Below are positions 1-19,673 of a stretch of 19,825 bases of DNA, one piece after another. The stretch comes from Clostridia bacterium. Lineage in GTDB: Bacteria > Bacillota > DSM-521 > Neomoorellales > Neomoorellaceae. The position numbers and the translations under genes were made by a program. The notes under the pieces were generated by a model, which had not been told where the DNA came from, made no database searches, and was given only the letters and a program-made list of their open reading frames with translations. The stretch's first letter is position 1. Every line of letters begins with the position of its first letter. The stretch spans positions 1-19,825 of the forward strand of contig JASUSX010000009.1 in assembly GCA_030445875.1 (NCBI GenBank), in the 5' to 3' direction.

Positions 1-26
1 AAAACCGCCCCTACTGGGGCGGTTTT
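1..26 (-). terminator. Rho-independent terminator of the left-edge gene
   Basis: A perfect 11-bp inverted repeat: AAAACCGCCCC at 1-11 pairs with GGGGCGGTTTT at 16-26, with a 4-nt loop. Read on the minus strand the stem is GC-rich and ends in a short T run. The TAG stop of the upstream gene (11-13) sits at the loop edge, so the stem's 5' arm encodes the last residues of that protein. The symmetric A/T ends mean it could also stop transcription arriving from the other side. Confidence 0.85.
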
Positions 27-703
27 ATGTTGATACGCCTGTTAAAATCGTAGAAGTCGACGGTCATGGTCAGCTTATCCTGGGGACGCTGGCGGTGAGC
101 AGCTTCCAGGGAAACCTGGCGGATGTAGTTGCTACCCCGTTCCACCAGGAACTGGTAGTTGAAGTCCTGCCAGTAGCTGTTGAGAAACTGGTTGTTGACC
201 CGGGGCTGGCAGGTCAGGAGATAGGGCCGGCCTGGCACCTTTTTCTGGCGGCCCAAAAATTTCAGGTTATCTACCTGGGTAATTTTTAAGATCGAGAGGG
301 GATTAATCTCAGCCATGTATTTTTCCTGTTCCAGGGGACTGTTGCCCGGGGTCACCATCCAGCGCTTGGAGGCCGGGTCGCGGAAATAGGTGGTATCCTT
401 GACCTGGTAGATCTCTACTGGCTGGCCGGTCATTTGACCCTTTAGATACAGGCTGCCATCACCGGCCTTCTCACCCTCCAGCTTGCTCAAGGCTATGCTA
501 TTACCACCAGCAGTCAGGTTGGCCTCGACATGGAAGCGGTAGCTGCTCGCCTGATTGGTGGTATCCAGGGCCTGGACAATGAGCTCCTGGGGGTCGACCT
601 TGATCTCCCGCAAATAATAGGAATAGGCCCATCCACCGCCGGCCAGAGCCACGATTAATACAAGCGGCAGGATGATTTGCCAGCGTAATAATTTCTGCAA
701 CAA
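11..703 (-). CDS. Membrane-anchored extracytoplasmic protein, function unknown
   Basis: I do not recognise a specific family. From the start chosen here the product is about 230 residues: a short basic N-terminus, one hydrophobic segment at about residues 9-28 (IILPLVLIVALAGGGWAY), then a polar domain with many beta-type stretches. This fits a single N-terminal membrane anchor with the rest outside the cell. There is no lipobox cysteine. The overall layout (YRFHVEANL, GSLYLKGQM, TTYFRDPASKRWMV) resembles the half-barrel lipoprotein carrier fold of the LolA/LppX type, but this is a weak impression. The frame stays open to a GTG at 787, but no ribosome site precedes that codon. A TTG at 701-703 has AGGAGG at 711-716 with a 7-nt spacer, so I moved the start there. 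It is separated from the methyltransfer operon by that operon's terminator, so functional linkage is not implied. Confidence 0.7.
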   Translation of the reverse strand: MLQKLLRWQIILPLVLIVALAGGGWAYSYYLREIKVDPQELIVQALDTTNQASSYRFHVEANLTAGGNSIALSKLEGEKAGDGSLYLKGQMTGQPVEIYQVKDTTYFRDPASKRWMVTPGNSPLEQEKYMAEINPLSILKITQVDNLKFLGRQKKVPGRPYLLTCQPRVNNQFLNSYWQDFNYQFLVERGSNYIRQVSLEAAHRQRPQDKLTMTVDFYDFNRRINIKPPQ

Positions 704-710
704 TAACCAC

Positions 711-716
711 CCTCCT
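711..716 (-). promoter_or_regulatory. Shine-Dalgarno site that sets a TTG start
   Basis: AGGAGG on the minus strand, 7 nt before the TTG at 701-703. It supports the shorter form of the membrane-anchored protein over the GTG at 787, which has no comparable site. Confidence 0.6.
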
Positions 717-742
717 CCCCTGCCGGGTTTAATCCGGGTACC

Positions 743-768
743 GGAAAAGATCCCCCTGCTTTGGGGAT
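743..768 (-). terminator. Weak hairpin with T run in the leader of the membrane protein
   Basis: ATCCCC (750-755) pairs with GGGGAT (763-768) around a 7-nt loop; on the minus strand this is followed by CTTTTCC. If translation starts at 703, the element lies in the untranslated leader and could attenuate transcription. The stem is only 6 bp, so it may be chance. Confidence 0.25.
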
Positions 769-872
769 ACCCTGTTTCAGCAGTCACACGTTCTATTTAA
801 TGGTATGGCAGGCGGCCGGGGATATACCAGGATATTTCTGGTAGGCTACCAGTTCTACCGACCTGGACAAAA

Positions 873-897
873 TAAAAGACCTGACTGAAAGTCAGGC
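873..897 (-). terminator. Rho-independent terminator ending the methyltransfer operon
   Basis: CCTGACT (880-886) pairs with AGTCAGG (890-896) around a 3-nt loop. On the minus strand the hairpin is followed by TCTTTTATTTTG. It lies 12 bp beyond the TAA of the URO-D gene, so it marks the end of the six-gene corrinoid operon. Confidence 0.8.
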
Positions 898-908
898 CCG
901 TAGGTGGC

Positions 909-1943
909 TTACTGGTAGCTCCCATATTGCTCGACAGCCCGGTACAGGGCTAGAACGTTCTCCAGGGGCAGGGAGGCGTTCAAAATACCGCAGGCTGTAG
1001 AGAAGATATAGCCCCCGCCGGGGGCTGCAACGTCCAGCAGGCTACGGACGGCGGCGGTTATAGTATCCGGGTTGCCGGTAACCAGGAGATCCAGGTCGAA
1101 GTTACCCATCAGGCATAACCTCTCCCCGTACTCCCTTTTAACGGCCCCTATATCCATGCCGGCGGCCGGCTCCAGGCCCTGGATGCCGTCCAGGGGCAGG
1201 GCGGCCAGGTCAGGCAGGACGGCCCGTAGGTTACCGTCAGAGTGGTAGAGGACCGGCAGGCCCATTTCTTTGATCCCTTCTACCAGACGCCGCAAATGAG
1301 GCAAAAAGTTCTCCCGCCAGAGGTCTGGCCGGATATAAGTCCCCCGGTCGTAGGCAATATCATCGCCGATAATAATACCATGGGCCCCCGCCTGGCAACA
1401 AAGACGGGCCAGTTCCAGGTTGAAATCGACGATAGCCCTAGCCAGGTCCGTAATAACCCCCATCCGGCCGGCGACGGCCAGGAGAAAATCGGTAAAATCA
1501 AAGAGCTTGCCTGTCCCCTGGAAGGGACCATCGACAAAGGCCAGGATAAAGAAGTCCGTTTCCTCCCGCCAACGCCGGATCGCCTGCAGGTCGAAGGAGG
1601 CGGGGTCCGGCAGGATATACTCTGCGGCAGCCCCAATATCCGGAATAGCCGGAGCCAAGGGCGCCCTCAGTCTCCCGCCGTTATGGTAACGACAACCCCA
1701 GGCATCCCGGTAGCTGCCGGACCCCAGTTCCTCCACCGGCGCCGCCGGGGTAACGGCCAGCAGATCCATGCCCAGGAGTTCCCGGGCTGCAACCTCCAGG
1801 TAGAAGTCGGAAGTAGAAGCGTCCGTTCCCTCCAGGCCCAGCAGGGTAGCCACCAGGCCCGGTTCCAGTTCGAATTCCCCCCGGGGCACCCGGTCAGGCC
1901 GGCCGCCAGCCAGGGCCGCCTGCACCCTTTCAATATGAGTCAT
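909..1943 (-). CDS. URO-D family methyltransferase, candidate MT I of the corrinoid system
   Basis: A 344-residue protein of the uroporphyrinogen decarboxylase fold family, which includes corrinoid-dependent methyltransferases (MtaA/MtbA types and aromatic O-demethylase components). The N-terminus (MTHIERVQAALAGGRPDRVP) is a typical family start. A barrel strand ends in LYHSDGN (H234, D236), E258 lies in GLEPAAGMD, and C318 in STACGI. In the zinc-dependent members the H-x-C motif is usual; here the cysteine is D236, while the distal cysteine remains. Being last in an operon with a corrinoid protein, an MT II and a corrinoid activator, it most likely moves a methyl group from a substrate to the corrinoid protein. 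The substrate cannot be read from the sequence; methoxylated compounds are the leading guess. The frame extends to a GTG at 1982 that overlaps the previous stop but lacks a ribosome site; the ATG at 1941-1943 follows GGTGGG and fits the family start. Confidence 0.85.
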   Translation of the reverse strand: MTHIERVQAALAGGRPDRVPRGEFELEPGLVATLLGLEGTDASTSDFYLEVAARELLGMDLLAVTPAAPVEELGSGSYRDAWGCRYHNGGRLRAPLAPAIPDIGAAAEYILPDPASFDLQAIRRWREETDFFILAFVDGPFQGTGKLFDFTDFLLAVAGRMGVITDLARAIVDFNLELARLCCQAGAHGIIIGDDIAYDRGTYIRPDLWRENFLPHLRRLVEGIKEMGLPVLYHSDGNLRAVLPDLAALPLDGIQGLEPAAGMDIGAVKREYGERLCLMGNFDLDLLVTGNPDTITAAVRSLLDVAAPGGGYIFSTACGILNASLPLENVLALYRAVEQYGSYQ

Positions 1944-1978
1944 GTTCCCCACCCACCTCTCACTTCTCACCTCCCATT

Positions 1979-3817
1979 TCACGGTAGCAGAAGCGAATTT
2001 ACATATACCTCTTGGAAGGTGGGTTGGGTCATAAGCTCGATATAGCCCACCTGGCGGGCTATATCCTCTCCCCGTTGCCGCTCGGCCATGGACAGAAGGG
2101 CCAGGCGCGCCCCGGTGCCAGCGGCATTGCCCACCTGGTGAAAGGCGTCCAGGAGCAGGTTGGGGAACATACCAATGGTAATGGCGCTTTCCAGTTGCAG
2201 GTGGGTGCCGAAGGCCCCGGCCACCACGATTTCCTCTAGATCCTCCACCTTAAGCCCGGCTGCCTCCAGCAGGAGGAGGGTGCCGCTGGCAATGGCCGCC
2301 TTGGCCAGCTGGATCTCGCTGATGTCCTTCTGGGTAACCACCAGGTCGCCGTCAATCCCTGTTTGTTCTGCCGGCACCAGCAGGAATTCCGGTGGACCGC
2401 CCCCGGCCGGCCGCCGCACCCGGGGGTGACTTACATCCAGGCGGCCGCTGGCGTTGAGGATACCGGCCCGGTACAGCTCGGCCACGGCGTCCAGGATACC
2501 GGAGCCGCAGATACCTAAAGGTGGCGCATTGCCGATGCTCTCCCAGAAAACCTCCCGGCCGCCGTCGCTCAAACGGACGGAACTAATGGCCCCGGTAATG
2601 GCCCGCATACCCTGGGCAATGTGGGCCCCCTCAAAGGCCGGGCCAGAGGCGCAGGAGCAGGAAAGCATCCGGCCCTTGTAACTCAAGACGATCTCAGTGT
2701 TGGTGCCAATATCCAGGCCCAGGGTTACTTTACGGGCCGCATCAATCCGGCTCCCCAGGATGAAGGCTACATGGTCACCGCCAACAAAGCCGGCGATTAC
2801 CGGTTGGAGGTAGACGCAGGCCCCGGGGCTAAGGTCTAACCCCAGGTGCCGGGCCTTCACCTCCACCGGCGTGGTCACAGCGGGCACATAGGGGGCGCGG
2901 GCCAGCTGGGCCACCGGCAGGTGTAACAACAGGTGGTGCATGGCTGTATTCCCTACAATGACAGTTTCTTCAATGTCCGTCGTTGCCACACCGGCCTTTT
3001 CCGCCAGGGCGGCCGCCAGGTGGTTCAGGCCTTCGATCTCTACTGCCTGGATGCGCCGGTAGGCCTCCTCCCCCTCCAGGGCATAGCCCAGGCGCGCCAT
3101 GACGTCTTCACCATAGGCTATCTGCGGGTTCATAATGCCATCCGCTGCCAGGGTAGCCCCCGTCTCCAGGTTAATAAGAAAGCCGGCCACCTTGGTGGTG
3201 CCCAGGTCGACGGCCAGGCCCACCGGCGGTGGCGCCGGCCGGCCAGTATAAATGTTAATCACTTCCGTCCCGCGCACTGTCACCGTAGCGCTGCCGACGG
3301 CCGCCTGGGGTTCCGTCTCCCGGGCCAGGTTAAAATCCACCACCGGTCGCGCCAGGCCATAGGTGGCCTCTAGCCCACCGGCCACCTGCTGCCAGAGGGG
3401 GGCGGGATTATCGATAGTCGTCTTACTTAACGGCAGGTTATACCTTTTCACCGGGGGCTCGGGGACAACCTCCACCTCCAGCCCCTCGACCTGAAGTTTC
3501 TGAACCCCGAGCATGGATTCCGGGGGGATCTCCACCTTAACGGGGCCAGTAACTGTGGCCTGGCAGGCCAGGCGGTAGCCCTGCTCCAGCTGGGCCGGCG
3601 TCAGGAAACGCCTCTCCGCCGGCGTTATCTCCCCGGCCTGCCCGGAGGCTACCCGCACCCGGCAGCGGCCGCACAGGCCCCGGCCGCCGCAGGGAGCAGT
3701 CAAACCCCCGGACCCCAGGGCCAGCCCCAGTTGCTGGGCCGCGGCGAGAATCGTCTGGCCGATTGTAATGTTCAGGCGCCGGCCTACGGGTTGGAAATCA
3801 ACCTGTACTTCCTTCAA
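1979..3817 (-). CDS. RACo-like corrinoid activation protein (2Fe-2S ferredoxin plus ASKHA ATPase)
   Basis: About 612 residues. The N-terminal ferredoxin domain holds a plant-type [2Fe-2S] set, C-x5-C-x2-C and a distal cysteine (C43, C49, C52, C85 from the TTG start). After a linker comes an actin-like ATPase domain with a DLGTTK phosphate motif near residue 205, a second LDIGTNTEI motif near 370, GICGSGILD near 440 and GAFGTHL near 537. This architecture is that of RACo/RamA-type activators, which use ATP to drive reduction of accidentally oxidised Co(II) corrinoid to Co(I). Its place between the regulator and the URO-D methyltransferase fits a housekeeping role for the corrinoid protein at the head of the operon, and perhaps for the corrinoid domain of the sensor kinase. 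The longest frame begins at a GTG (3826) directly against AGGGGG; the TTG at 3815-3817 has a 7-nt spacer and is preferred. It overlaps the preceding gene by 20 bp, so translation is probably coupled. Confidence 0.9.
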   Translation of the reverse strand: MKEVQVDFQPVGRRLNITIGQTILAAAQQLGLALGSGGLTAPCGGRGLCGRCRVRVASGQAGEITPAERRFLTPAQLEQGYRLACQATVTGPVKVEIPPESMLGVQKLQVEGLEVEVVPEPPVKRYNLPLSKTTIDNPAPLWQQVAGGLEATYGLARPVVDFNLARETEPQAAVGSATVTVRGTEVINIYTGRPAPPPVGLAVDLGTTKVAGFLINLETGATLAADGIMNPQIAYGEDVMARLGYALEGEEAYRRIQAVEIEGLNHLAAALAEKAGVATTDIEETVIVGNTAMHHLLLHLPVAQLARAPYVPAVTTPVEVKARHLGLDLSPGACVYLQPVIAGFVGGDHVAFILGSRIDAARKVTLGLDIGTNTEIVLSYKGRMLSCSCASGPAFEGAHIAQGMRAITGAISSVRLSDGGREVFWESIGNAPPLGICGSGILDAVAELYRAGILNASGRLDVSHPRVRRPAGGGPPEFLLVPAEQTGIDGDLVVTQKDISEIQLAKAAIASGTLLLLEAAGLKVEDLEEIVVAGAFGTHLQLESAITIGMFPNLLLDAFHQVGNAAGTGARLALLSMAERQRGEDIARQVGYIELMTQPTFQEVYVNSLLLP

Positions 3818-5438
3818 ACTGGCCACCCCCTAATTTACGGAACACGCTGGGCGTGTATCCTTCCTGTTTTTTAAAGACCTGGCCAAAATAGCGGGCATCG
3901 TGATAACCAACCCTGGCAGCTATTTCCGCTACCGGCAGGTTGGTGTTTAAGAGCAATTCCCTGGCGGCCTTAAGGCGCACCCTGGTCAGGTAATCGATAA
4001 AATTCTGCCCTTTGGTCTGCTTAAAGAGGCGGCTGAAATAGCAAGGGCTTAAATAAACCTGCTGGGCAACCTCTTCCAGGGTGAGGTCCTGGTGGAAATT
4101 GGCTTCGATGAACCTGCTGGCCCGTTCCATAAGGGCGGAGTTGCGTTGCTCCCGGCTGGCCACCACCTGGTCTACCAGTTCCCCCAGGCGCTCCAGGATG
4201 CGGCCTCGCATAGCAGCCAGGTTGTCAAGCTCTAAAAACTCGCTACTCCCGGCCAGGGTAAGACTGGAGACCGCCTCCGGGTCGGCCCCGCCTTCCAGGG
4301 CGGCGTTGGCCGCCAGGGCTACCAGTTCCAGGAGTTTCATCTTGACCAGGGTCGGGCGCTTCTCCTGTTCCAAGAGAAGTTGCATCAAAATATTTCCCGC
4401 CTGCCGCCGGGCCGCCTCCCGGTCCCCTATGCGGATAGCCTGGGCGAGTCCCTGTTCCTCATAAGCAGGCAGGGGCCGGGTAGCCCCGGGCCTGGTAGTA
4501 ACGTCGTCGGCATGGATCACCTGGTCGCCGCCGTAAAGCAGGCGGAACTCGGCGGCAGCCGCTGCTTCGGCATAGGAACGAGCCAGTCCCGTCACCCCTT
4601 CGGCCAGGCGGCCGATACCCACCGTCACCGTCATCCCCGTATCCTGGCGCACCCGGTGGCAGATGGCTTCCCCCAGGTGGATAGCCTCCCGGCGGCTTTC
4701 CTGGCCCGGGGACAGGTGTTGCAAGGGTAATAGGATGGCAAACTCATCCCTGGTAATGGGGGCTACCAGGGCGCCGGGCCAGCCAGCCGTTGCTGCCTCG
4801 ATACTCTCCTTGACCTGTTGTTTGCACATCTGCCGCTCTATTTCCCCGCCTTCCCGGGCCAGGGCGGCAAAATTATCGATATCCACCAGCAAGGCCAGTT
4901 GCGGCAGGGGATTAATCCCCAGGAAACTGGCCCGGCTAAGGGCGTCGGCCTCGGTTATGTTACCGCTTATCAGGTCGATAATAAAGCCCAGGCGCAGGAG
5001 GGGCCGCAGCTCAGCCAGGGTCTTTTTCAGCCGGGCCGTCTCCTGCTGGCGCCGATGGGAAGCGTCGATCTCCCCGGCCAGCTCATCCAGGAGGGCGAGC
5101 ATCTCTTCCCCGTCCACCGGCTTCAACAGGTATTTGGAGGCCCCCAGGGAAACAGCCTCGCGGGCGTAATCAAACTCACCATAGGCAGTGACGAAAATTA
5201 ACCTGGCCTCCGGTAAAAGGTTGCGGATCTCCCGGCCGGCAGCCAGGCCATCCATGACGGGCATCTTGATATCCAGGAAGATAATATCCGGCCGCAAGGC
5301 AGTTGCCTGGCTTACGGCCTCCAGGCCGTTGCTCGCTTCCCCGGCTACCTGGTACTGGGGCCGTTCCCTGGTAAGGAGAAAACGCATGGCCTGGCGCTCC
5401 AGGGGTTCATCATCAACCAGCAGGATCTTAAGCTCCAT
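3798..5438 (-). CDS. YesN-type response regulator (REC, central GGDEF-like domain, AraC HTH)
   Basis: About 546 residues from the ATG at 5438. Residues 3-120 are a receiver domain: acidic pair D9/D10, phospho-acceptor D56 (IIFLDIKMP), T84 and K106 (LLKP). The middle (about 150-310) resembles the degenerate GGDEF-like module found in YesN-type regulators; it lacks a cyclase signature. The C-terminal 100 residues (about 440-540) are an AraC/XylS double helix-turn-helix ending GYTPSVFRK. This regulator is the expected partner of the LytS/YesM-like kinase encoded just upstream (32-bp gap). It probably controls this operon, and the direct repeats at 8946-9035 are candidate targets. The start is uncertain: the only strong ribosome site (GGGAGGAGG, 5457-5465) is 18 nt from this ATG and 12 nt from a TTG at 5444, so two extra residues are possible. 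Confidence 0.9.
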   Translation of the reverse strand: MELKILLVDDEPLERQAMRFLLTRERPQYQVAGEASNGLEAVSQATALRPDIIFLDIKMPVMDGLAAGREIRNLLPEARLIFVTAYGEFDYAREAVSLGASKYLLKPVDGEEMLALLDELAGEIDASHRRQQETARLKKTLAELRPLLRLGFIIDLISGNITEADALSRASFLGINPLPQLALLVDIDNFAALAREGGEIERQMCKQQVKESIEAATAGWPGALVAPITRDEFAILLPLQHLSPGQESRREAIHLGEAICHRVRQDTGMTVTVGIGRLAEGVTGLARSYAEAAAAAEFRLLYGGDQVIHADDVTTRPGATRPLPAYEEQGLAQAIRIGDREAARRQAGNILMQLLLEQEKRPTLVKMKLLELVALAANAALEGGADPEAVSSLTLAGSSEFLELDNLAAMRGRILERLGELVDQVVASREQRNSALMERASRFIEANFHQDLTLEEVAQQVYLSPCYFSRLFKQTKGQNFIDYLTRVRLKAARELLLNTNLPVAEIAARVGYHDARYFGQVFKKQEGYTPSVFRKLGGGQFEGSTG

Positions 5439-5470
5439 AGACAAAACCGGGCCTGGCCTCCTCCCATTTC

Positions 5471-7288
5471 TTAAATAGTATAAGGAAAGCTGAGCTGAAT
5501 GCAAGTACCCTTGCCTGGTGTACTGCTGACATCCAGGGCGCAGTTGCCGCCGAAGTGGTGTTGCAGGCGACGAAAGACATTGACGATGCCCAGGCCGCTG
5601 ACCTGGCCCTTGCCGCTGCCCCGCACCTGGAGGTCAAAGATGGCCTTCTGGACCTCAGGGGGGATGCCGACCCCATCATCCTTGATCTCGATATGGACCT
5701 GCTCACCCACCCGGCGGCCGGTGACGGTGATTTCCCCGCCCTTTTCCCTGGGTTCCAGGCCGTGGATAACGGCGTTCTCCACCAGGGGCTGGAGGATCAT
5801 GCAGGGCACCCGCGCCTCCAGGATCCCTTCCTCGACTGACACCTGGCCTTGCACCCGGTCCGGGAAACGCGTCTGCTGGATAAAGAGATAATCCCGCACG
5901 GCCGCTATCTCTTCGGCCAGGGTAACCGTTTCCTTGACCTGGTAGAGGCTATAGCGCATCAGGCGGGCCAGGGAACGAACCATTTTTTCGGTGGTTGCCG
6001 CCCCCTCGAAAAGGGCCAGGCGGGCAATGGTATTCAAGGCGTTAAACAGAAAGTGAGGGTTCACCTGGGACTGCAGGGCCTTAAGTTCAGCATCCTTCAG
6101 GGCCTGCTCCAGCTGGTGCTGCCTTTTCAAGAAATGGATAAAGCTGGTGCGCTGTTCCTCCAGCTCTTTGTTGGCTAGCAGGACGGCATTGAGTTGCATG
6201 ATCTGCCCGGCTACAAAGGAAAGCAGGGCGCAAAGGGCTTCTAAGTCCTTGAGGTTCAATACCGGTACGGCGGCCTTTAATTGGTCCGGGGCCGGGTCGC
6301 CAGCCAGGAGGCAATGGCCGCAGAGGACAGTTCCTACCGTGCCGTCTTCGTTAGCCAGGGGGTAAGAGATCTCCACCAGGCCGGCGTGGCAGCGGTAGAT
6401 AAAGGCCTCTTTGAAATTACCGGCCAAGGTAGTAACATCTATGGCCCGCGTGGGGCTACCCTGGAGAAGATGGCAATGGCGGGAACACTCCAGGAAGCCC
6501 ACCGGGGGTGTCAGGGGGCTGCCGGTAGCATCCACCATGATCAGGTGCAAGCCCGTCAGGCGGTTAAAGGCCTGCTGCAGGTCTTCCAGGGAACCTTTGC
6601 CAAAGAACAGGTCCAGGGTTGCCGGGGCCAGAACGGCCTGGTGTTTGCCAGAGGCCCCAATCAGGTCTTTGATCAGCTGGACGGCCGCGGTGGCGTCGGG
6701 GGCGTAACCATCAGCCCCCATCCTGGCGGCAATCGTGGCGTTCAGGGGCGTACCCCCCACCACTACCTTGACCTTGCGCCGCCAGCCCGCCTCTTTCAGA
6801 GCCTCAATGGTTTCGCCCATGGCGCCCCGGGTAGACGAAAGCAGGGCCGACAAGCACAGGACATCGGGGTGGTGTTTGATTACTGCTTCGACAAAGGTGC
6901 TGGGGGCGACGTTAACCCCCAGGTCAAGGACCTCGAAGCCCGAGGCCTCAAGCATTATCCCCAGGAGGTTTTTGCCAATATCGTGGATGTCCCCCTGGAC
7001 GGTGCCGATGACCACCCGGCCCACTGGCTGCACCTGGCCCGTCAGCATAAAGGGCTTTAGTTCCTTGAGGCCGGTATGCATCGCCCGGGCGGTAATAATC
7101 AGGTCGGTCACGTAGATCTCGTTACGTTCAAACCTTTCCCCTACCACATCCATGGCTGCCACAAAGCCGTCGGCGATTATGCGGCCCGGGTCCACCCCGG
7201 CAGCCAGGGCCTTCTTTACTTCTTCCCGTACCTGGACGGCATTGCCGTTAATCACGGCCTGGACTAAACCCTCCAGGGAAACGGCCAT
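5471..7288 (-). CDS. Hybrid sensor histidine kinase with N-terminal corrinoid-binding and PocR domains
   Basis: 605 residues with three parts. Residues 1-212 are a full methyltransferase corrinoid module: a helical cap, then the B12-binding motif GDIHDIG with cobalt-ligand H102, SALLSST at 147-153, GGTP at 178-181 and GADGYAPDA. It is visibly related to the free corrinoid protein at 8170-8799. Residues about 225-370 are a PocR-type ligand domain with cysteines at 268, 272, 300, 323 and 326. A coiled linker leads to a LytS/YesM-type kinase: phospho-acceptor H412 in NPHFLFNALN, N box around N505 (QPLVENAVIHG), DDGVGIPP (537-544) and GLGIVNVFRRL. No membrane segment is seen, so it should be cytosolic. 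I infer that it senses corrinoid state, methylation or a methyl donor, and phosphorylates the regulator encoded next. The frame opens further upstream, but the ATG at 7288 has AGGAGGG (7295-7301) at a 6-nt spacer. A terminator hairpin lies immediately before that site. Confidence 0.93.
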   Translation of the reverse strand: MAVSLEGLVQAVINGNAVQVREEVKKALAAGVDPGRIIADGFVAAMDVVGERFERNEIYVTDLIITARAMHTGLKELKPFMLTGQVQPVGRVVIGTVQGDIHDIGKNLLGIMLEASGFEVLDLGVNVAPSTFVEAVIKHHPDVLCLSALLSSTRGAMGETIEALKEAGWRRKVKVVVGGTPLNATIAARMGADGYAPDATAAVQLIKDLIGASGKHQAVLAPATLDLFFGKGSLEDLQQAFNRLTGLHLIMVDATGSPLTPPVGFLECSRHCHLLQGSPTRAIDVTTLAGNFKEAFIYRCHAGLVEISYPLANEDGTVGTVLCGHCLLAGDPAPDQLKAAVPVLNLKDLEALCALLSFVAGQIMQLNAVLLANKELEEQRTSFIHFLKRQHQLEQALKDAELKALQSQVNPHFLFNALNTIARLALFEGAATTEKMVRSLARLMRYSLYQVKETVTLAEEIAAVRDYLFIQQTRFPDRVQGQVSVEEGILEARVPCMILQPLVENAVIHGLEPREKGGEITVTGRRVGEQVHIEIKDDGVGIPPEVQKAIFDLQVRGSGKGQVSGLGIVNVFRRLQHHFGGNCALDVSSTPGKGTCIQLSFPYTI

Positions 7289-7300
7289 TGCTAGCCCTCC

Positions 7301-7341
7301 TAACAAAAAGGGCCGCAGCAAGGGAACCCCTTCCTGCGGCC
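7301..7341 (-). terminator. Internal terminator between catalytic and sensor genes
   Basis: GGCCGCAG (7311-7318) pairs with CTGCGGCC (7334-7341). Inside it, AAGGG (7320-7324) pairs with CCCTT (7328-7332) around a 3-nt loop, with one C-C mismatch between the two stems. On the minus strand the hairpin is followed at once by CTTTTTG, the classic intrinsic terminator shape. It lies 18 bp past the TAG of the MT II gene, and the kinase's ribosome site starts right after the T run. It should lower expression of kinase, regulator, activator and URO-D gene relative to the corrinoid protein and MT II. Confidence 0.85.
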
Positions 7342-7359
7342 GGAAGTAATCGCTGAATT

Positions 7360-8157
7360 CTACGCTTTGATCTTACCGGCGCGGGCGGCAGCAATATACT
7401 CCAGGCAAAACTCATCTTGGCCAGCCAGGGCTGTAGCTGCCCGCAAAAGACCCATCAGCTGAATATCCAGGGGATCGAGGATAAAAGCATCCATCCCCCG
7501 GGTCAAACACATGACCATAAAGGCCCGGTTTAAGAGTCGGCGCTCTGGTAAACCGTAAGAAACGTTGGACAGGCCGCAGATACTATGCACTTCAGGATAC
7601 TTTTCCTTCAGGGCCGCCACAGACTCCAGGGCTTCGACGCCGTACTGGCTGTTTACCCCCAGGGGTTTAATCAGAGGGTCCAGGTAAATATCGTCGGCCG
7701 GTACCCCTGCTGCTACCAGGCCAGAAACCAGCTTATCCGCCACCCGCAAACGGTCCGCCACCGACTCTGGCATACCGCCGTCGTCCATACAGAGGGCAAT
7801 AACCTTCGCCTTATACTCTTTAACCAGGGGCAGGACTTCCGCCCAGCGCTCTTTCTCGGCTGTAATGGAATTGATCATCGCCTGGCCTTTATGGGCGGCC
7901 AGACCGGTCGCCAGGGCTTCCGCGCTAGGACTATCGATACATAAAGGTACGTCGACTACTTCCTGGACGGTATCCACCAGCCAGGCCATGACCTTTTCTT
8001 CTTCGCCAATGCTTGTCCCGCAGTTCACGTCGATGATGGCGGCCCCGGCTGCCGCCTGCTTCCGCGCCAGGTCCTGGATATAGGCCTTGTTACGGTTGGC
8101 AATGGCCTGGGCGACGGCCTTGCGGCTGGAATTGATCAGTTCGCCAACAACCAGCAT
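7360..8157 (-). CDS. Methyltetrahydrofolate:corrinoid methyltransferase (MT II type)
   Basis: 265 residues, a single pterin-binding TIM-barrel domain of the AcsE/MtvA/MtgA type with no extra modules. Recognisable elements are GELINSSR at 5-12, DVNCGTS with D43 and N45, CIDSPS with D75, INSI with N96, D160 in YLDPLIKP, and GLSNVSYGLPERR with N198. These match pterin-contacting segments of the family. The enzyme should transfer a methyl group between the corrinoid protein and tetrahydrofolate, linking demethylation to the Wood-Ljungdahl pathway. Its start is secure: ATG at 8155-8157 follows GGGAGG at a 7-nt spacer in the 12-bp gap after the corrinoid protein gene. Direction of transfer cannot be read from the sequence; with an activator and a candidate MT I in the operon, methyl-folate formation is the likely direction. 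Confidence 0.93.
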   Translation of the reverse strand: MLVVGELINSSRKAVAQAIANRNKAYIQDLARKQAAAGAAIIDVNCGTSIGEEEKVMAWLVDTVQEVVDVPLCIDSPSAEALATGLAAHKGQAMINSITAEKERWAEVLPLVKEYKAKVIALCMDDGGMPESVADRLRVADKLVSGLVAAGVPADDIYLDPLIKPLGVNSQYGVEALESVAALKEKYPEVHSICGLSNVSYGLPERRLLNRAFMVMCLTRGMDAFILDPLDIQLMGLLRAATALAGQDEFCLEYIAAARAGKIKA

Positions 8158-8169
8158 ACCCTGGCCTCC

Positions 8170-8799
8170 CTACGAAGCCAGCAGCTCGCGGGCGAGGTCT
8201 ACCGCCGAGGCAGCGTCGGGGGCGTAGCCGTCAGCCCCAATTTCGTCGGCAAATTTCTGGGTTACCGGGGCGCCGCCAACCATAATCTTGACCCTGTCGC
8301 GATAGGCTGCCAGGCCCTCGACAGTCTTCTTCATCTGCATCATGGTAGAGGTCAACAGGGCGGAAATGCCAATTAACTGGGGCTTGTGTTCCTCCACGGC
8401 CTGGACAAATTTCTCAACCGGCACGTCAATGCCCAGGTCAACCACCTTGAAGCCAGCGCCTTCCATCATCATAATTACCAGGTTCTTGCCGATGTCGTGG
8501 AGGTCGCCCTTAACCGTACCAATTATCAGCGTACCTTTATCCTCCATGGCCCCGCCGGCCAGCAAGGGCTTGACTACATCCATACCGGCGTGCATAGCCC
8601 GGGCCGCTACCAGGACTTCTGGTACATAAACCTCGTTATTCTTGAATTTGACGCCGATGATATTCATGGCCGCAATGAGGCCGTCGTTAATAATAGTAGT
8701 CGGAGCCATACCCTCGTCCAGGGCTTTTTGGGTTAATTCTTTGACCTTGTTGGCATTACCGGCCATCAAGGCTTCCTTGATTTCCTCCAGGACTGCCAT
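8170..8799 (-). CDS. Methyltransferase corrinoid (B12-binding) protein
   Basis: 209 residues, the usual length of MtaC/MtvC/MtmC-type corrinoid proteins. Residues 1-88 form the four-helix cap domain. The Rossmann-like domain begins with GTLIIGTVKGDLHDIG, giving the DxHxxG motif with H101 as the lower cobalt ligand. SALLTST (146-152), GGAP (175-178) and GADGYAPDAASAV complete the nucleotide-tail binding pocket. It shuttles the methyl group between a substrate-specific MT I and the folate-specific MT II. It is the first gene of the operon, with ATG at 8799 and AAGGAGG at a 7-nt spacer, and is followed 12 bp later by MT II. Strong ribosome site and first position suggest it is made in the largest amount. 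Confidence 0.95.
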   Translation of the reverse strand: MAVLEEIKEALMAGNANKVKELTQKALDEGMAPTTIINDGLIAAMNIIGVKFKNNEVYVPEVLVAARAMHAGMDVVKPLLAGGAMEDKGTLIIGTVKGDLHDIGKNLVIMMMEGAGFKVVDLGIDVPVEKFVQAVEEHKPQLIGISALLTSTMMQMKKTVEGLAAYRDRVKIMVGGAPVTQKFADEIGADGYAPDAASAVDLARELLAS

Positions 8800-8805
8800 G
8801 GCGGT

Positions 8806-8825
8806 ACCTCCTTATTAATATAAGG
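8806..8825 (-). promoter_or_regulatory. Hairpin overlapping the ribosome binding site of the corrinoid protein gene
   Basis: CCTTAT (8810-8815 on the plus strand) and ATAAGG (8820-8825) are perfect 6-bp arms around a 4-nt loop. In the mRNA the 3' arm contains the AAGG part of the AAGGAGG ribosome site (8807-8813). It could partly mask translation initiation, but the stem is AU-rich and weak. Confidence 0.3.
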
Positions 8826-8856
8826 TTACTTCATTTTTAAGTTTATTTTAAGATTA

Positions 8857-8885
8857 ATGGTACCGCAAGGCTAAATTATTGCCAA
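8857..8885 (-). promoter_or_regulatory. Candidate sigma-A promoter of the methyltransfer operon
   Basis: On the minus strand TTGGCA (8880-8885) and TACCAT (8857-8862) are separated by exactly 17 nt. The -35 matches 5 of 6 and the -10 matches 4 of 6 consensus bases. It lies between the aspA terminator and the first gene, giving a leader of roughly 50 nt. The weak -10 would suit an activated promoter. Confidence 0.45.
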
Positions 8886-8907
8886 AGGTTTATTTTCTTG
8901 TCCTGGG

Positions 8908-8943
8908 AGAAAATTGGGGCCTGCTACAGGAAATACAGGCCCC
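8908..8943 (-). terminator. Rho-independent terminator after aspA
   Basis: GGGGCCTG (8916-8923) pairs with CAGGCCCC (8936-8943), with a 12-nt loop. The minus-strand transcript continues AATTTTCTCC. It lies about 80 bp beyond the aspA stop and isolates aspA from the methyltransfer operon. Confidence 0.75.
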
Positions 8944-8945
8944 GG

Positions 8946-9035
8946 GGTAATATTGATCATATGTGAGTTAGGTAGCCCTTACAGTTACCCGGCCAGTCAC
9001 GAGGTTATATTGTGATTATATATCAGTTGGGTAGC
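8946..9035 (-). repeat. Imperfect direct repeat upstream of the methyltransfer operon
   Basis: Copy A is 8946-8976 (31 nt) and copy B is 9003-9035 (33 nt). They align at 26 of 31 positions with one 2-nt gap, share the ends GGT and GGTAGC, and start 57 bp apart. Copy B includes the last four codons and stop of aspA. They may be tandem binding sites for the AraC-type regulator or a duplicated gene end. Confidence 0.55.
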
Positions 9036-10426
9036 ATCTGGCGAGGGTCCAGTAACTCCCGCGCCTGGTCCTCCGGCAGGATCTCCATTTCCCGCACTAC
9101 CTCCAGGATGCTCTTACCGCTGGCCAGGGCTTTTTTGGACACCTGAGCTGCGGCATCATAGCCGATTAAGGGCACCAGGGAGGTTACCAGGCTGAGGGCG
9201 CCTTCAGCATAGCGCTGGCAACGGTCTACCCGGAATTTCATACCCTTGATCGTCTTGACCGTTAAAGAGTTGACCGCCTCGGCCAACATCCCCAGGCTCT
9301 CAAAGAGGGAGAAAGCCAGCACCGTCTGCATCACGTTGAGTTCGAACTGGCCGGCGGAAGCAGCCAGGCTAATGGTCAGGTCATTGCCAAAGACCTTGAA
9401 GCACACCTGGTTCACCACTTCGGGAATAATGGGGTTAACTTTGCCGGCCATAATGCTGGAACCGGCAGCCAGGGGTGGCAACTCCACCTCCGCCAGGCCG
9501 GCCATGGGGCCAGAGGCCATCAGGCGCAAGTCATTGGCGATTTTCGTCAGGGTTACGGCGGCCGTCCGTAATAAACCGCTCACCTCTACGAGCACGTCTA
9601 AATTCTGGGTGGCATCGACCAGGTTCTTAGCCAGGTGCAGGTGGGGAATACCTGTAACGACGCGCAATTCTTCGATTACTATTTCCCGGTAGAGGGGGTG
9701 GGCGTTTAAGCCCGTTCCGACGGCCGTCCCGCCCAGGTTAACCTCAGCCAGCAGCTTTACCGCCAGGTTACCGCGCTCCACATCCCGCTGGATGGCCTCA
9801 GCCCAGGCCTCCAGTTCCTCGCCAATAGTTAAGGGAACAGCGTCCTGCAGGTGGGTACGGCCCAGCTTGATCGCGTCCCGGTATTCAGCTGCTTTTTCCC
9901 GCAGGGCTCCGGCCAGGAGCATATTGGCCTTAATGTAGCGCTGCAAGAGGCGGATGGCGGCAATCCTGATGGCCGTTGGCAGGACGTCATTGGTGGATTG
10001 GCCCTTGTTGACATCGTCGATGGGGTTAACCTTATCATATGTTCCCGGCTGGTAGCCCAGAATAACCAGGGCGCGGTTGGCTATAACTTCGTTAACGTTC
10101 ATATTAATGGCCGTACCGGCTCCGCCCTGGATCGCTTCGCCGATAAACTGCTCGTGCCACTTGCCGCCTATAATCTCCTCCGCGGCCCGGGCGATCGCCA
10201 TAGCCTTGCTCCGCTCCAGGGTTCCCGCCTTCATATTGGCCAGGGCAGCGGCCTTCTTAACCATAGCCAGGGCGATAATCAGCTCCGGGTGGATCTTGTA
10301 ACCGCTGACCGTAAAGTTTTCCTGCGCCCGCAAACTATGAATACCATAGTAAGCGCCGCTGTAAATGGCCTTTTCGCCCAGGGAGTCCTTCTCCACCCTG
10401 GTAGAGCTAGATTTTTCCGCCAGCAT
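9023..10426 (-). CDS. aspA: Aspartate ammonia-lyase
   Basis: 467 residues, the normal length for aspartases. It belongs to the fumarase/aspartase superfamily: GQSTNDVLPTA at 142-152, GRTHLQDAVP at 189-198 and the mobile signature loop GSSIMAGKVNP at 322-332 with the catalytic serine. The N-terminal YYGIHSLRAQENF is typical of aspartase rather than fumarase. The loop has Ala where GSSIMPxKxN is more usual, still within the GSxxMxxKxN pattern. It reversibly converts aspartate to fumarate and ammonia in the cytosol. ATG at 10424-10426 is preceded by GGGAGGGG at a good distance. It has its own likely promoter and terminator, so it may be a single-gene unit, possibly with readthrough from the PucR-type regulator gene upstream. 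Aspartate is also the substrate of the pyrB product encoded upstream, but no direct link is shown. Confidence 0.95.
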   Translation of the reverse strand: MLAEKSSSTRVEKDSLGEKAIYSGAYYGIHSLRAQENFTVSGYKIHPELIIALAMVKKAAALANMKAGTLERSKAMAIARAAEEIIGGKWHEQFIGEAIQGGAGTAINMNVNEVIANRALVILGYQPGTYDKVNPIDDVNKGQSTNDVLPTAIRIAAIRLLQRYIKANMLLAGALREKAAEYRDAIKLGRTHLQDAVPLTIGEELEAWAEAIQRDVERGNLAVKLLAEVNLGGTAVGTGLNAHPLYREIVIEELRVVTGIPHLHLAKNLVDATQNLDVLVEVSGLLRTAAVTLTKIANDLRLMASGPMAGLAEVELPPLAAGSSIMAGKVNPIIPEVVNQVCFKVFGNDLTISLAASAGQFELNVMQTVLAFSLFESLGMLAEAVNSLTVKTIKGMKFRVDRCQRYAEGALSLVTSLVPLIGYDAAAQVSKKALASGKSILEVVREMEILPEDQARELLDPRQMLPN

Positions 10427-10480
10427 TTTATTCCCCTCCCAGGAATTTAGTAATTACACTGGTGAGATAAGTAGCTTCTC

Positions 10481-10518
10481 TATAATACATTATAGTGCAT
10501 ACTGTACCATGTATACAA
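10481..10518 (-). promoter_or_regulatory. aspA promoter with palindromic -10 region
   Basis: On the minus strand TTGTAT (10513-10518) and a perfect TATAAT (10489-10494) are spaced 18 nt apart. The -10 hexamer is one arm of an inverted repeat, TATAAT at 10481-10486 and ATTATA at 10489-10494, separated by 2 nt. A repressor bound there would block the promoter, but the symmetry may simply reflect AT richness. Confidence 0.5.
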
Positions 10519-10540
10519 TAACCATTAAAAAATTTTTTTC

Positions 10541-12223
10541 TTACTCCAGGCTGTTGCCAAAGCGGTTAAAGACCTGGGATAAACGCATGGCTACCTGCAG
10601 GTTCAACTTCTGGTCCGGCTGGTTAAAATCTACCCCGGTTAATTCCTTGATCTTATTTACCCGGTACAGGATGGTATTATAATGGGTATACATCTTCTCC
10701 GCCGTTTCCTTGACATTGCAATTGGTCTCCAGGTAGGTCTCCAGGGTCTTATAGAGCTCCCCTTTTTTATTGTAGTCATAATCCAGCAAGGGAGCCAGGA
10801 TCTCCTGGACAAAATCCTTTAGTTCAGCCATACCGGCGTGTTTGAGGAGCAAACCATAAACGCCCAGGTTGCGGTAATAGATATTACTGCCACTACCAAA
10901 GAGATACCGGCCCAGCTCCAAAGCAATCTTGGCCTCCCGGTAACTCCTTTTAATGCCTTTAATGCCATTATAACCGCTGCCGATGCCGATGGTAACCTGC
11001 CAGTAGTTGAGGACAGCCCTTAGTTGATGCAGGAAACCCCGGGCCCCGTTTTCTTTACCGTTGCATACTAAGGTGGGCTCCACTAAGAGGGTCAGGCCGT
11101 CTTCGTTGTTTACCAGGATAAATTTCAGCCGTTGCCGGCGGCAGAAATTCTCCAGCAGGATGGCGGCCCTGGTCTTGAGGTCCTGCGGCCGGTCCCCATT
11201 AAGGGTTACCTTATTTGTCTTAGCGGGTGGGCTGACATCCAGCAACAGGGCGGCATAATCGCCCGTCAATTCCCAGCCAAAGGTTCGAGCCCGTTCCAGG
11301 AAATCCTTTTCGTCCAGGTTGGAAGAGGTCAAAAGCTGGCTCAAAAATTCGGCTTTATATTTATTCTCGATCTGGGTAACATTGTGTTGCCTGATTATAT
11401 CCAGGGCGACGATGGAGCAGACCCGCTCCAGGGTGAGCAACTCCAGGAGCGAAAAACGCCGCTCCAGGAGCACGGCCTTGACCCAGCCATACTGCTGCCC
11501 CTCGACGATCACCGGCAAAGCAGCGCAATCAGCCTCCCGGCCATCAAAGGTCACCTGCTCCCGGTAAAAATCGCCCGTATCATAACAATCGGCTTTCTGG
11601 CCGACCAGATCCTCCCGTTCAAAATAACGGACCACCTCCGCCGGGATATCACGGGGGTAAATAACCCGCCGGTAATTCGAGTGGTCTTCCAGGCAGACGT
11701 AAGCGTTGATTAATTCCGCCAGGGCGGTAGCGATCTGGTCCAACTGCCCACCCTTCAGGATTAAATCCGTAAACTGCTGGTGGACTGCTACGCTATGCTC
11801 TAAAAATAGGGCCTGTCGGTTAACCAGCTGGGAAAGGACGCTGGATATCAATTCGGAAAAATTTATCTCCGCCGGCATTTCCAGCAAAGGGAAGTTCAAA
11901 TTGTTGGCGGCTTCGATCATGTATAAAGGTATGGTTTCGATATAGCGCTGGGATTTGATGGCCAGCCCGGCGGCCCCCTGGCGGGCCAGCTGGGGAATGA
12001 GGCCCTTCTGGGCGTCTATATCATCCTTAATGGCGTAGCCGGTGGTGAGAAGGAAATCCCCGCTCTTAATCCAGGGCAAAATATCCGGTACTTCCATTAC
12101 GTTGACATTGGTGATAACCCGCTGCAGGCCTTCCCCCCCGCCCAGGAGCCGGCACTTCTTAAAGGCCGGGAGGTGCAAAACTTCTTCTACACTAATCCCG
12201 TAGTGGTCCATGATCGCTACCAC
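10541..12223 (-). CDS. PucR family transcriptional regulator
   Basis: 560 residues. The N-terminal PucR domain spans about 10-135 (ISVEEVLHLPAFKKCRLLGG, then WIKSGDFLLTTGYAI). The centre holds a CdaR/GGDEF-like module, and residues about 490-550 form the C-terminal PucR-type HTH (ETYLETNCNVKETAEKMYTH, then LYRVNKIKELTG). Family members control purine catabolism, among other degradation pathways, in Gram-positive bacteria. It lies downstream of the molybdenum hydroxylase genes and upstream of aspA, so the hydroxylase operon and aspA are its plausible targets. The effector is unknown. The GTG at 12223 follows GGAGGTGATC (12231-12240), a full complement to the 16S rRNA tail, at 12 nt from GGAGG. 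An ATG at 12211 with a weaker GGTGG site is a real alternative. Confidence 0.88.
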   Translation of the reverse strand: MVAIMDHYGISVEEVLHLPAFKKCRLLGGGEGLQRVITNVNVMEVPDILPWIKSGDFLLTTGYAIKDDIDAQKGLIPQLARQGAAGLAIKSQRYIETIPLYMIEAANNLNFPLLEMPAEINFSELISSVLSQLVNRQALFLEHSVAVHQQFTDLILKGGQLDQIATALAELINAYVCLEDHSNYRRVIYPRDIPAEVVRYFEREDLVGQKADCYDTGDFYREQVTFDGREADCAALPVIVEGQQYGWVKAVLLERRFSLLELLTLERVCSIVALDIIRQHNVTQIENKYKAEFLSQLLTSSNLDEKDFLERARTFGWELTGDYAALLLDVSPPAKTNKVTLNGDRPQDLKTRAAILLENFCRRQRLKFILVNNEDGLTLLVEPTLVCNGKENGARGFLHQLRAVLNYWQVTIGIGSGYNGIKGIKRSYREAKIALELGRYLFGSGSNIYYRNLGVYGLLLKHAGMAELKDFVQEILAPLLDYDYNKKGELYKTLETYLETNCNVKETAEKMYTHYNTILYRVNKIKELTGVDFNQPDQKLNLQVAMRLSQVFNRFGNSLE

Positions 12224-12287
12224 CCCCTTCGATCACCTCCTCTCTTTTTCGCCATAATTACCCGGTTGTCCTGCTAAGTTTTAATTA

Positions 12288-12316
12288 AAGGCGAAGGGAA
12301 TTAAACCCTTCGCCTT
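12288..12316 (-). terminator. Terminator after the molybdenum hydroxylase operon
   Basis: AAGGCGAAGGG (12288-12298) pairs perfectly with CCCTTCGCCTT (12306-12316), with a 7-nt loop. On the minus strand the tail is TTTAATTAAAAC, so the T run is interrupted. It sits 8 bp after the stop of the 2Fe-2S subunit gene. Confidence 0.75.
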
Positions 12317-12324
12317 CCCTGGCC

Positions 12325-12792
12325 TTATGCCGGGTGCTTGACCTCTTTCACCGCCCGCACAATGGCCGCATAGCCTGTGCAGCGACAGAGGTTGCCCCGC
12401 AGGTAGTCCCGGATCTCTTCCTCGCTGGGATCAGGGTTTTCCGCCAGCAGGGCCTGGGCCGTGAGAAGCATACCTGGGGTACAGAAGCCGCACTGCACCG
12501 CCCCATGGTCCAGAAAAGACTGCTGCAGGGGATGGAGCCGGTCATAATCCCCCATGCCTTCCACGGTGGTAATCTCCTGGCCCTCCATGGTAACCGCCAG
12601 GATCAGGCAGGCTAGCATGGGCTGACCGTTGACCAGGACTGTGCAAGCAGCACACTCGCCCAGGCCGCAACCGTACTTGGCCCCCATCAACCCCAGCTCG
12701 TCGCGCAAGACATTGAGCAGGAGCTCGTTGGGCTTAATAAACAGTTGCCTCTCTTTGCCGTTGACCTTTAGCTTTACCCACTGCCTTTCCAT
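12325..12792 (-). CDS. Molybdenum hydroxylase 2x[2Fe-2S] subunit (xanthine dehydrogenase family)
   Basis: 155 residues, the typical size of the small iron-sulfur subunit. The N-terminal plant-type cluster is bound by C42, C47, C50 and C62 (YGCGLGECAACTVLVNG). The helical domain carries the proximal cluster with C101, C104, C136 and C138 (QCGFCTPGM, NLCRCTGY). It passes electrons from the molybdenum centre to the FAD subunit. The ATG overlaps the stop of the FAD gene by one base (TAATG), which suggests translational coupling and a fixed subunit ratio. Subunit order here is Mo, FAD, Fe-S in the direction of transcription. Confidence 0.95.
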   Translation of the reverse strand: MERQWVKLKVNGKERQLFIKPNELLLNVLRDELGLMGAKYGCGLGECAACTVLVNGQPMLACLILAVTMEGQEITTVEGMGDYDRLHPLQQSFLDHGAVQCGFCTPGMLLTAQALLAENPDPSEEEIRDYLRGNLCRCTGYAAIVRAVKEVKHPA

Positions 12793-13682
12793 TACAGGAC
12801 ACCTCCTGCCCGTTGCCAGGCGGCCCGCAGGGCCTCGGCCAGCATCACCCGGCTAACCTTTAACCTGTACTCGCGCGTGGAGCGATTATCACTTATGGGT
12901 TTAATGGCGGCGGCCCCCGCCTGGGCAGCGGTTTCAATTAGATCCTCAGTTATCTCCTGCCCGGCCAGGAGGGCCTCAGCTTCCGGAACGCGAATGGGCG
13001 TCGGCGCTACCGAGCCAAAGGCTATCCGACAAGCGGTACAGTTGCGCCCGGAACGCTGAAGGGAAACGGCGACATTGATTTTGGCAATATCGGCTGCCAC
13101 CCGGCCCAACTTCAGGAAACTGCTACCGCTCTCCGAACCCTGGGGAGGGAGGCTAATCTCCGTCAAAAGTTCTTCCGGGGCCAGGCAGGTTTTACCGGGA
13201 CCCAGGAAAAACTCCTCCACCGGCACCAACCTGGTCCCGGCCTGGCTGGCCAGTTTCAGGGTGGCGCCGTAGACCAGCAATGGTGGGGCCGTATCGGCAG
13301 CCGGGGAGGCGTTGCCCAGGTTACCACCTATGGTACCCATATTCCTGATGGCCGTGGCTGCCATCGACCGTACGGCTTCATAAAGGGCGCTGTAACCGGT
13401 CTTTACGGCCGCGCAGCCCTCGAGTTTCCTTAAAGTAGTGGTAGCGCCAATCCTTAAGCCTGCCTCATCGGCCTGGATATAATCCAGGCCAGCTACCTTT
13501 TTGATGTAGATGATATATTCAGGCTGCACCTGGCCGGTCTTCATTTTGACCAGCAGGTCGGTCCCCCCGGCGAGGACTCTGGCCCTGGTCCCATATTGCC
13601 CCAGCCAGGCTAAAGCCTCATCCAGGCTGTGGGCCTCCAGGTACTGAAATTCCGCCGCCAGAACCCGCGTATCAGTTGCCAT
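12792..13682 (-). CDS. Molybdenum hydroxylase FAD-binding subunit
   Basis: 296 residues of the CoxM/XdhB-like FAD family. The two diphosphate-binding segments are visible: VLAGGTDLL at about 36-44 and GTIGGNLGNASPAAD at 116-130. The C-terminal part (about 180-290) matches the CO dehydrogenase flavoprotein C-terminal domain. There is no cysteine-rich insertion of the kind that binds an extra [4Fe-4S] cluster in 4-hydroxybenzoyl-CoA reductase. The protein should take electrons from the iron-sulfur subunit and pass them to NAD or another acceptor. The ATG at 13680-13682 lies inside the end of the upstream gene (11-bp overlap), so the two are coupled. The upstream ribosome site is weak (GGGGG). 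Confidence 0.93.
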   Translation of the reverse strand: MATDTRVLAAEFQYLEAHSLDEALAWLGQYGTRARVLAGGTDLLVKMKTGQVQPEYIIYIKKVAGLDYIQADEAGLRIGATTTLRKLEGCAAVKTGYSALYEAVRSMAATAIRNMGTIGGNLGNASPAADTAPPLLVYGATLKLASQAGTRLVPVEEFFLGPGKTCLAPEELLTEISLPPQGSESGSSFLKLGRVAADIAKINVAVSLQRSGRNCTACRIAFGSVAPTPIRVPEAEALLAGQEITEDLIETAAQAGAAAIKPISDNRSTREYRLKVSRVMLAEALRAAWQRAGGVL

Positions 13683-16017: not shown

Positions 16018-16032
16018 GCCCTCCACCCTCCT

Positions 16033-16971: not shown

Positions 16972-17039
16972 TCCCGTCACTCCTTCAAAAAACAACTTCT
17001 GCCAAAAATGATTACTGCCTGATCTGAGGCTACTTCTGG

Positions 17040-17250
17040 GGTGAGGCAGGTTCCCTTCGGGCGGTGGTTGCGCCGTTAGGCTGGCATTGTTTTTGCTCGC
17101 TCCAAACAAATGCCATCCCGTTATTTTCATCACTCTGATGGTCCCGCGTGAGCGGAATGAGGGTCTTGTATCGTGGTGGGATATGTCCCTGCGGCGCTTA
17201 TGCTTTCGCGGATCCGGGACATATCCCCACCCCATAATCACCGCCTCACC
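17040..17250. repeat. Inverted-repeat-rich spacer between pyrB and arcC
   Basis: The 278-bp gap 16972-17249 holds no supported gene. It contains a long stem of 15-16 nt arms (17175-17189 with 17216-17231, one bulged base, 26-nt loop, core GGGACATATCCC). A second, imperfect stem joins 17082-17092 and 17104-17115 around TGGCATT. An 8-bp inverted pair GGTGAGGC (17040-17047) and GCCTCACC (17243-17250) brackets both. No T run follows the large stem on either strand. It could be a degenerate small mobile or REP-like element; the arcC promoter must also lie here if arcC is not read through from pyrB. Confidence 0.4.
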
Positions 17251-18218: not shown

Positions 18219-18256
18219 AAAAAATAGATAACCTCCTTGAGCATTTTCATATAATT

Positions 18257-19552: not shown

Positions 19553-19624
19553 TTTAATAACCCCCTCCCCTCGCTGAATTCTTAAACCTAAATTAATCTT
19601 TCTCCCTGGATCCACTGCTCACCT

Positions 19625-19640
19625 TTGTGGATTACCACAA
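19625..19640. promoter_or_regulatory. Perfect palindrome upstream of pyrC
   Basis: TTGTGG (19625-19630) and CCACAA (19635-19640) form 6-bp arms around ATTA. There is no T run, so it is not a terminator. Its place in the only gap between the LivF-like gene and pyrC makes it a candidate operator or RNA hairpin for pyrC control. No firm promoter could be assigned in this gap. Confidence 0.3.
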
Positions 19641-19673
19641 TTATTTAGCTGTTTTTATATAAACATTATCTAA

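Follow-up and report, generated by a model that had tools for sequence, protein, structure and literature searches.

To our knowledge, how anaerobes sense the methyl donors of their numerous corrinoid methyltransferase operons is a largely open question. In CarH and the photocobilins, B12-binding domains serve as sensors and show photochemistry. Histidine kinases with a PocR domain are already known from the mec cassette (PMC9768040). In the 19,825-nucleotide stretch of a Neomoorellaceae genome analysed here (contig JASUSX010000009.1, positions 1 to 19,825; hereafter, the window), a gene at 5471-7288 encodes a histidine kinase in which a corrinoid-protein module precedes the PocR domain. In Moorella-type acetogens, this kinase probably controls the adjacent methyl-transfer genes. 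The best reading of its signal, to which we give somewhat better than even credence, would be the methylation or redox state of its own corrinoid.

A corrinoid-protein module fused to a histidine kinase

The gene and the domains of its product are located as follows:
5471..7288, minus strand: histidine kinase fused to a corrinoid-protein module, 605 amino acids (aa), start ATG at 7288 (Pfam, start and ribosome-binding site, family comparison)
6653..7288, minus strand: corrinoid-protein module, residues 1-212, helical cap and Rossmann half (Pfam, structure matches)
6254..6595, minus strand: PocR domain, residues 232-345, with C268, C272, C300 and C323 (Pfam)
5474..6091, minus strand: LytS/GanS-type kinase core, residues 400-605, phospho-acceptor H412 assigned by motif (Pfam, structure match)

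The first-pass annotation, made from the letters alone, had described the product of 5471-7288 as a cytosolic kinase with an intact corrinoid module in residues 1-212, a PocR-type domain and a LytS-like kinase part, and our results agree with this description in each respect, the strand being minus. The start codon is preceded by AGGAGG, as found by inspection of the start region. Pfam domain calls, every one above the curated cut-off, place B12-binding_2 (PF02607) at residues 5-78 and B12-binding (PF02310) at 90-203, which are the helical cap and the Rossmann half of methyltransferase corrinoid proteins, followed by PocR at 232-345 (61.1 bits vs. a cut-off of 23.9), His_kinase (PF06580) with its phospho-acceptor histidine at 400-479 and HATPase_c at 498-604. 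The His-on motif of the DxHxxG - SxL - GG type is present with its whole ligand triad (D100-x-H102-x-x-G, S147 and G178-G179), and H102 in GDIHDIG, SALLSST (147-153), GGTP (178-181) and H412 were all found where they had been reported. The closest solved relative of residues 5-210 is the corrinoid protein 1y80 (187.7 bits), and that of residues 406-602 is the GanS kinase 6swj (162.3 bits). Since the Kyte-Doolittle average does not exceed 1.73 in any 19-residue window, the kinase has no obvious membrane span.

A database search for this architecture, as had been recommended, gave 1186 matches, and among the 120 of them that were listed (P0001-P0120, the window protein included) 91 are fusions (P0001-P0091). 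Two of the latter are incomplete: P0038 starts about 100 residues in, without the H102 region, and P0050 stops short of the kinase end. In all 89 complete fusions among the matches listed, D100, H102 and S147 occur together, which points to strong constraint on the module, and H412 is present in each of the 90 fusions that cover this position; all four residues are also kept in 24/24 examined fusion loci. A cap pair of the type whose role is known from MetH, F53 with V/I/L60, occurs in 88 of the 89. The all-pairs identity of the complete fusions is 0.46 for the cap, 0.57 for the Rossmann half, 0.38 for PocR, 0.68 for DHp and 0.56 for HATPase, so that the corrinoid-binding half is conserved like the ATPase domain and PocR far less. 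The 42 sampled fused rows are compatible with a single clade. Database names of the family sequences include 'histidine kinase' and 'Glutamate mutase sigma subunit'.

The fusion is present in at least 20 of 398 sampled genomes of the phylum, in which as a rule three candidates per genome were scored; these comprise 17 full-length matches and G086, G028 and G360, whose frames were scanned individually. Outside these 20, G153 holds a similar-looking candidate. Within the Moorella genus, a kinase match was found in 11/11 genomes, at full length in 10 and only from residue 308 in G398.

Of the three main domains PocR is conserved least, which might befit a reader of substrate, and its cysteines 268, 272, 300 and 323 are all retained in 67 of the 89 complete fusions, which would allow it a separate metal or redox input. 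PocR, which the first-pass annotation left out of its mechanism, could act as an additional sensor or even as the principal one. It is rather unlikely, in our opinion, that sensing (of the methyl donor, the demethylated product or, through the cysteines, of redox state) is really done by PocR, with the corrinoid module mainly stabilising the kinase or docking it to the methyltransferases. In favour of this, plain PocR kinases exist and adjoin diol-dehydratase genes in loci L060 and L063, and the PocR kinase MecA, which accompanies the mec cassette, has been proposed to sense dichloromethane (PMC9768040). However, Pfam lists no PocR in P0083-P0086, P0089 and P0090 (for P0085 and P0090 this was borne out by a rescan), and fusions of this kind still keep the corrinoid triad; docking alone would need neither D100, H102 nor S147. 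The triad stays constant where PocR decays, which speaks for the corrinoid as the main input.

The large subunit of the diol-dehydratase type in L060 and L063 belongs to PF02286, loci L061 and L062 look alike by eye, and this gene setting is consistent with a PocR that senses diols. In the incomplete genome of the window, just one further PocR domain was found (L001, G000:C41:9163-9633), in a 254-residue open frame with cysteines in FC, RC, FC and CGQ.

The fused modules (n = 92, of which three, L064-L066, duplicate or nearly duplicate database rows) were compared with 134 free corrinoid proteins, namely P0122-P0240 (119 of the 120 listed) and 15 from the window and loci; the partial P0121, of 92 percent identity, was left out. 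Position 61, next to cap residue 60, is the cap proline in 131/134 free proteins vs. 1/92 fused ones, in which it is T (69), A (9), M (6), V (5) or S (2). At the same time, 27 positions, those of the ligand motif among them, have the same residue in fused and free proteins and reach at least 95 percent conservation in each set (73 main-group fused rows vs. 134 free). A retained cofactor site under an altered lid is what would be expected of a carrier turned sensor, and the fused module may be just that. P0200 (271 aa, on a short contig), one of the three free proteins without P61, may be a cut fusion.

The same invariant binding motif is also compatible with a kinase that senses cobamide supply (apo vs. 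holo) and turns the operon on only when the cofactor is available, and the gene run likewise encodes a free corrinoid protein and an activator. This explanation, which we consider unlikely, by itself accounts neither for the retained cap residues nor for the change at position 61. A sensor of light or oxygen like CarH or the photocobilins is very improbable: the cap signature of the CarH type is W-x9-E-H, and the 92 fused rows have F53 and mostly L/V63 and I/L64.

Gene neighbourhood of the fusion kinases

The minus-strand order of genes around the kinase is free corrinoid protein, methyltransferase, kinase, regulator, RACo and MtaA/CmuA-like methyltransferase. The features other than the kinase are:
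8170..8799, minus strand: free corrinoid protein, first gene of the putative operon (domain matches)
7360..8157, minus strand: pterin-binding methyltransferase of the methyltetrahydrofolate (CH3-THF):corrinoid type (PRK07535, 366.9 bits vs. a cut-off of 259)
3798..5504, minus strand: response regulator with receiver, GGDEF-like and AraC helix-turn-helix (HTH) domains, YesN-like by architecture (Pfam)
1979..3826, minus strand: RACo/AcsV-like ferredoxin-ASKHA reductive activator of corrinoid proteins (domain matches)
909..1982, minus strand: MtaA/CmuA-like methyltransferase of the URO-D superfamily with HSDGN (scores below NCBIfam cut-offs)
877..899, minus strand: terminator-like 10-pair stem that follows the last gene (motif scan)

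These six genes are inferred to form a single transcript. The start of the regulator is uncertain, ATG 5438 or TTG 5444 being likelier than TTG 5504, and the open frames overlap at the regulator/activator and activator/methyltransferase junctions, where the real starts may differ. Terminator-like sites show no overall excess in the region (6 vs. a mean of 9.1 in shuffles).

The association with neighbouring methyl-transfer genes, on which the first-pass annotation relied, is seen well beyond the window. In 24 examined fusion loci (L009, which has the free corrinoid protein and the pterin enzyme, was excluded since the kinase gene there is cut by the contig end), a regulator match lies within 8 kilobases (kb) of the kinase in all 24, and at least one other methyl-transfer gene in 21, in L066 only by a weak 35-bit match, compared with none of eight plain PocR-kinase loci. 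Outside Moorella the figures are 12/15 vs. 0/8. The Fisher p-values of 1.6e-5 (all loci) and 3.4e-4 (outside Moorella) overstate the difference because the loci are related, and four of the eight plain loci are from Sporomusa and therefore nearly one case. Such a gene is missing from three fusion loci: L056; L058, whose contig spans 5 kb; and L011, which breaks off ahead of the genes seen in its near-copy L010.

In some loci the fused module might be a trigger enzyme, that is, a working methyl carrier as well as a sensor, and no free corrinoid gene is found near the kinase in L006, L007 (5.1 kb to the left and 8 kb to the right searched) and L064 (none within 8 kb). As a general explanation this is quite improbable: most examined loci with enough flanking sequence also have a free corrinoid protein, and in M. 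thermoacetica DSM 21394 other B12-binding proteins are encoded elsewhere in the genome. An Rfam scan of the window gave no family at the gathering threshold, so no riboswitch that would sense cobamide supply was seen, which speaks neither for nor against a protein sensor.

Several further features of these neighbourhoods were observed. The URO-D enzymes of the window (909-1982), L007, L010, L047, L052, L055 and L064 carry HSDG and that of L057 carries HCCG, at a site where coenzyme M (CoM) methyltransferases have HxCG. The URO-D methyltransferase gene of L064 (8015-9019) overlaps the start of the kinase by 14 bases. In L010 (8759-13532) and L011 (9271-12801), fusion kinases lie beside genes of a PFL2-3-family glycyl radical enzyme and an activase-like protein, followed in L010 by those of a URO-D enzyme and RACo; the top equivalog score of the L010 glycyl radical enzyme, under its cut-off, is to sulfopropanediol dehydratase. 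A protein of 222-227 aa recurs near fusion kinases (L055:11704-12384, L057:5747-6430 and L011:8168-8836); the L055 copy is a DUF1638 protein, the others are alike by eye, and NCBIfam gives no match for that of L011. Near the fusion kinase of L065, an open frame of 500 aa (L065:13827-15329) scores over the cut-off for the trimethylamine methyltransferase model TIGR02369. Upstream of the operon, the window (9023-19615) encodes an aspartase-like protein, PucR, three molybdenum-hydroxylase (xanthine-dehydrogenase-like) subunits, an amino-acid kinase (carbamate-kinase-like), a carbamoyltransferase and a dihydroorotase-like protein; other Moorella loci (e.g., L049) have no more than parts of this set next to the operon, and L047, L048 and L005 have no match to it.

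A conserved block before the free corrinoid gene

Two candidate regulatory features precede the first gene of the putative operon:
8866..8900, minus strand: conserved operator-like block CAAGAAAATAAACCTTTGGCAATAATTTAGCCTTG, 35 bases, 66 bases before the free corrinoid gene
8840..8868, minus strand: proposed weak promoter, TTGCGG (8868-8863), 17-base spacer and TAAACT (8845-8840), in conserved alignment columns

The core of the block, CAAGAAARYAAACCTWTGRCA at 8880-8900, was found in 0/200 shuffles, and the proposed promoter is not among the hits of a consensus promoter scan. The block occurs in 10/11 Moorella genomes, once each at up to 2 mismatches; its presence there partly follows by construction, because most of them also went into the alignment behind the search pattern. 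Allowing up to 3 mismatches again gives 10/11, the only extra site (3 mismatches) being in G261, and the reversed pattern gave 2 hits in the 11 genomes. In nine of the ten genomes that have it, the block stands directly before the free corrinoid gene. In G398, which was not used to draw the pattern, it directly adjoins what remains of the kinase gene, the 3' part starting at residue 308 (L070:1500-1660), and this junction is a deletion or a misassembly.

The real test of the block is its near-single copy together with its absence in M. thermoacetica DSM 21394 (G132, locus L006), the only Moorella genome without it. In that locus the free corrinoid gene is gone and only remnants of the pterin methyltransferase are left (L006:8569-8855), while the kinase, regulator, activator and URO-D enzyme frames remain open. 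Present about once per genome and missing where the free corrinoid gene was lost, the block looks like a dedicated switch of its own operon. It can be aligned in 13 chosen loci of several genera, where it reaches as far as CCTTG and overlaps a poor -35, with an invariant TA-ACT a further 17 bases on; such a layout would be that of an activator site. The sites in L009, L053 and L054 rest on position and alignment, because hits with 4-5 mismatches in the looser scan also occur at unrelated places. Given this operator-like block, the output of the kinase is probably its own operon.

Several points weigh against a corrinoid-reading switch of this kind, besides the partly built-in recurrence of the block. 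The looser scan did not find the block in L008 or L055, both of which have a free corrinoid gene. The DSM 21394 kinase is kept without the free corrinoid gene and the block, and therefore is not simply slaved to the operon there. No methyl-transfer gene lies near the kinase of L056, and the wiring differs between family members, as PocR is unlisted in P0083-P0086, P0089 and P0090.

Proposed mechanism and comparison with known systems

Domains, intact motifs, family-wide constraint, gene order and the conserved block are the observed parts of the following mechanism. The kinase would belong to a two-component system in the cytosol by which the methyl-transfer operon that encodes it is turned on, and the N-terminal module of the kinase, judging by the invariant ligand triad, would carry a cobamide on which the partners of the free corrinoid protein may also act. 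With a methyl donor present, the MtaA/CmuA-like enzyme would methylate Co(I) of the kinase, the pterin-binding enzyme would move the methyl group from the kinase to tetrahydrofolate, and the RACo-like activator would rescue Co(II). The cobalt state would shift the helical cap against the Rossmann half and, via PocR and the long helix 346-406, set the autophosphorylation of H412; PocR may add a second small-molecule or metal/redox input. The phosphate would pass to the neighbouring YesN-type regulator, which, as comparative footprinting suggests, would bind 8866-8900 and recruit polymerase for transcription of the free corrinoid gene from its weak promoter.

The first-pass annotation had the kinase report flux through the neighbouring methyltransferases, which is narrower than the evidence: the presence of substrate, inactivation to Co(II) and cobamide supply all fit. 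More tentatively, and with rather less than even confidence, we suggest that the kinase senses by organometallic chemistry, in which the pathway enzymes write a methyl group onto the internal cobalt or let Co(II) form in it and phosphotransfer reads this out; where the free corrinoid protein is absent, the same molecule may be carrier and sensor. If the proposed mechanism is true, the sensor reads the cofactor of the pathway and not its substrate, and it comes with a ready assay (UV-visible spectra and autophosphorylation), one predicted operator and a diagnostic residue at position 61. It could help to pair orphan methyltransferases with their substrates and could offer a methyl- or redox-responsive gene switch for anaerobes.

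Our literature searches turned up no account of a histidine kinase joined to a methyl-carrier corrinoid protein. Methyltransferase corrinoid proteins (1y80 of Moorella, MttC 7xcn, 3ezx and the MtgC models) share the fold, the His-on motif and the cap residues of the kinase module; however, they are free carriers, whereas the module is fused and its position 61 is not proline. Kinases of the LytS/YesM type, such as GanS (6swj/6swk), have a core about 40 percent identical (Foldseek), the PHFLFN motif and an AraC-type regulator partner, although the solved GanS construct is, by the structure titles, the kinase domain alone, without a corrinoid module. The CarH and photocobilin proteins likewise combine a B12-binding sensor domain with an output domain, but their cap signature and outputs differ. 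MecA of the mec dichloromethane cassette is similarly a PocR kinase with regulator and corrinoid methyltransferase neighbours; it is a protein of 430 aa and, unlike in the fusion, the corrinoid protein MecB is encoded by a separate gene (PMC9768040). Each half of the kinase is thus known separately, and their fusion is apparently an uncharacterised sensor variant.
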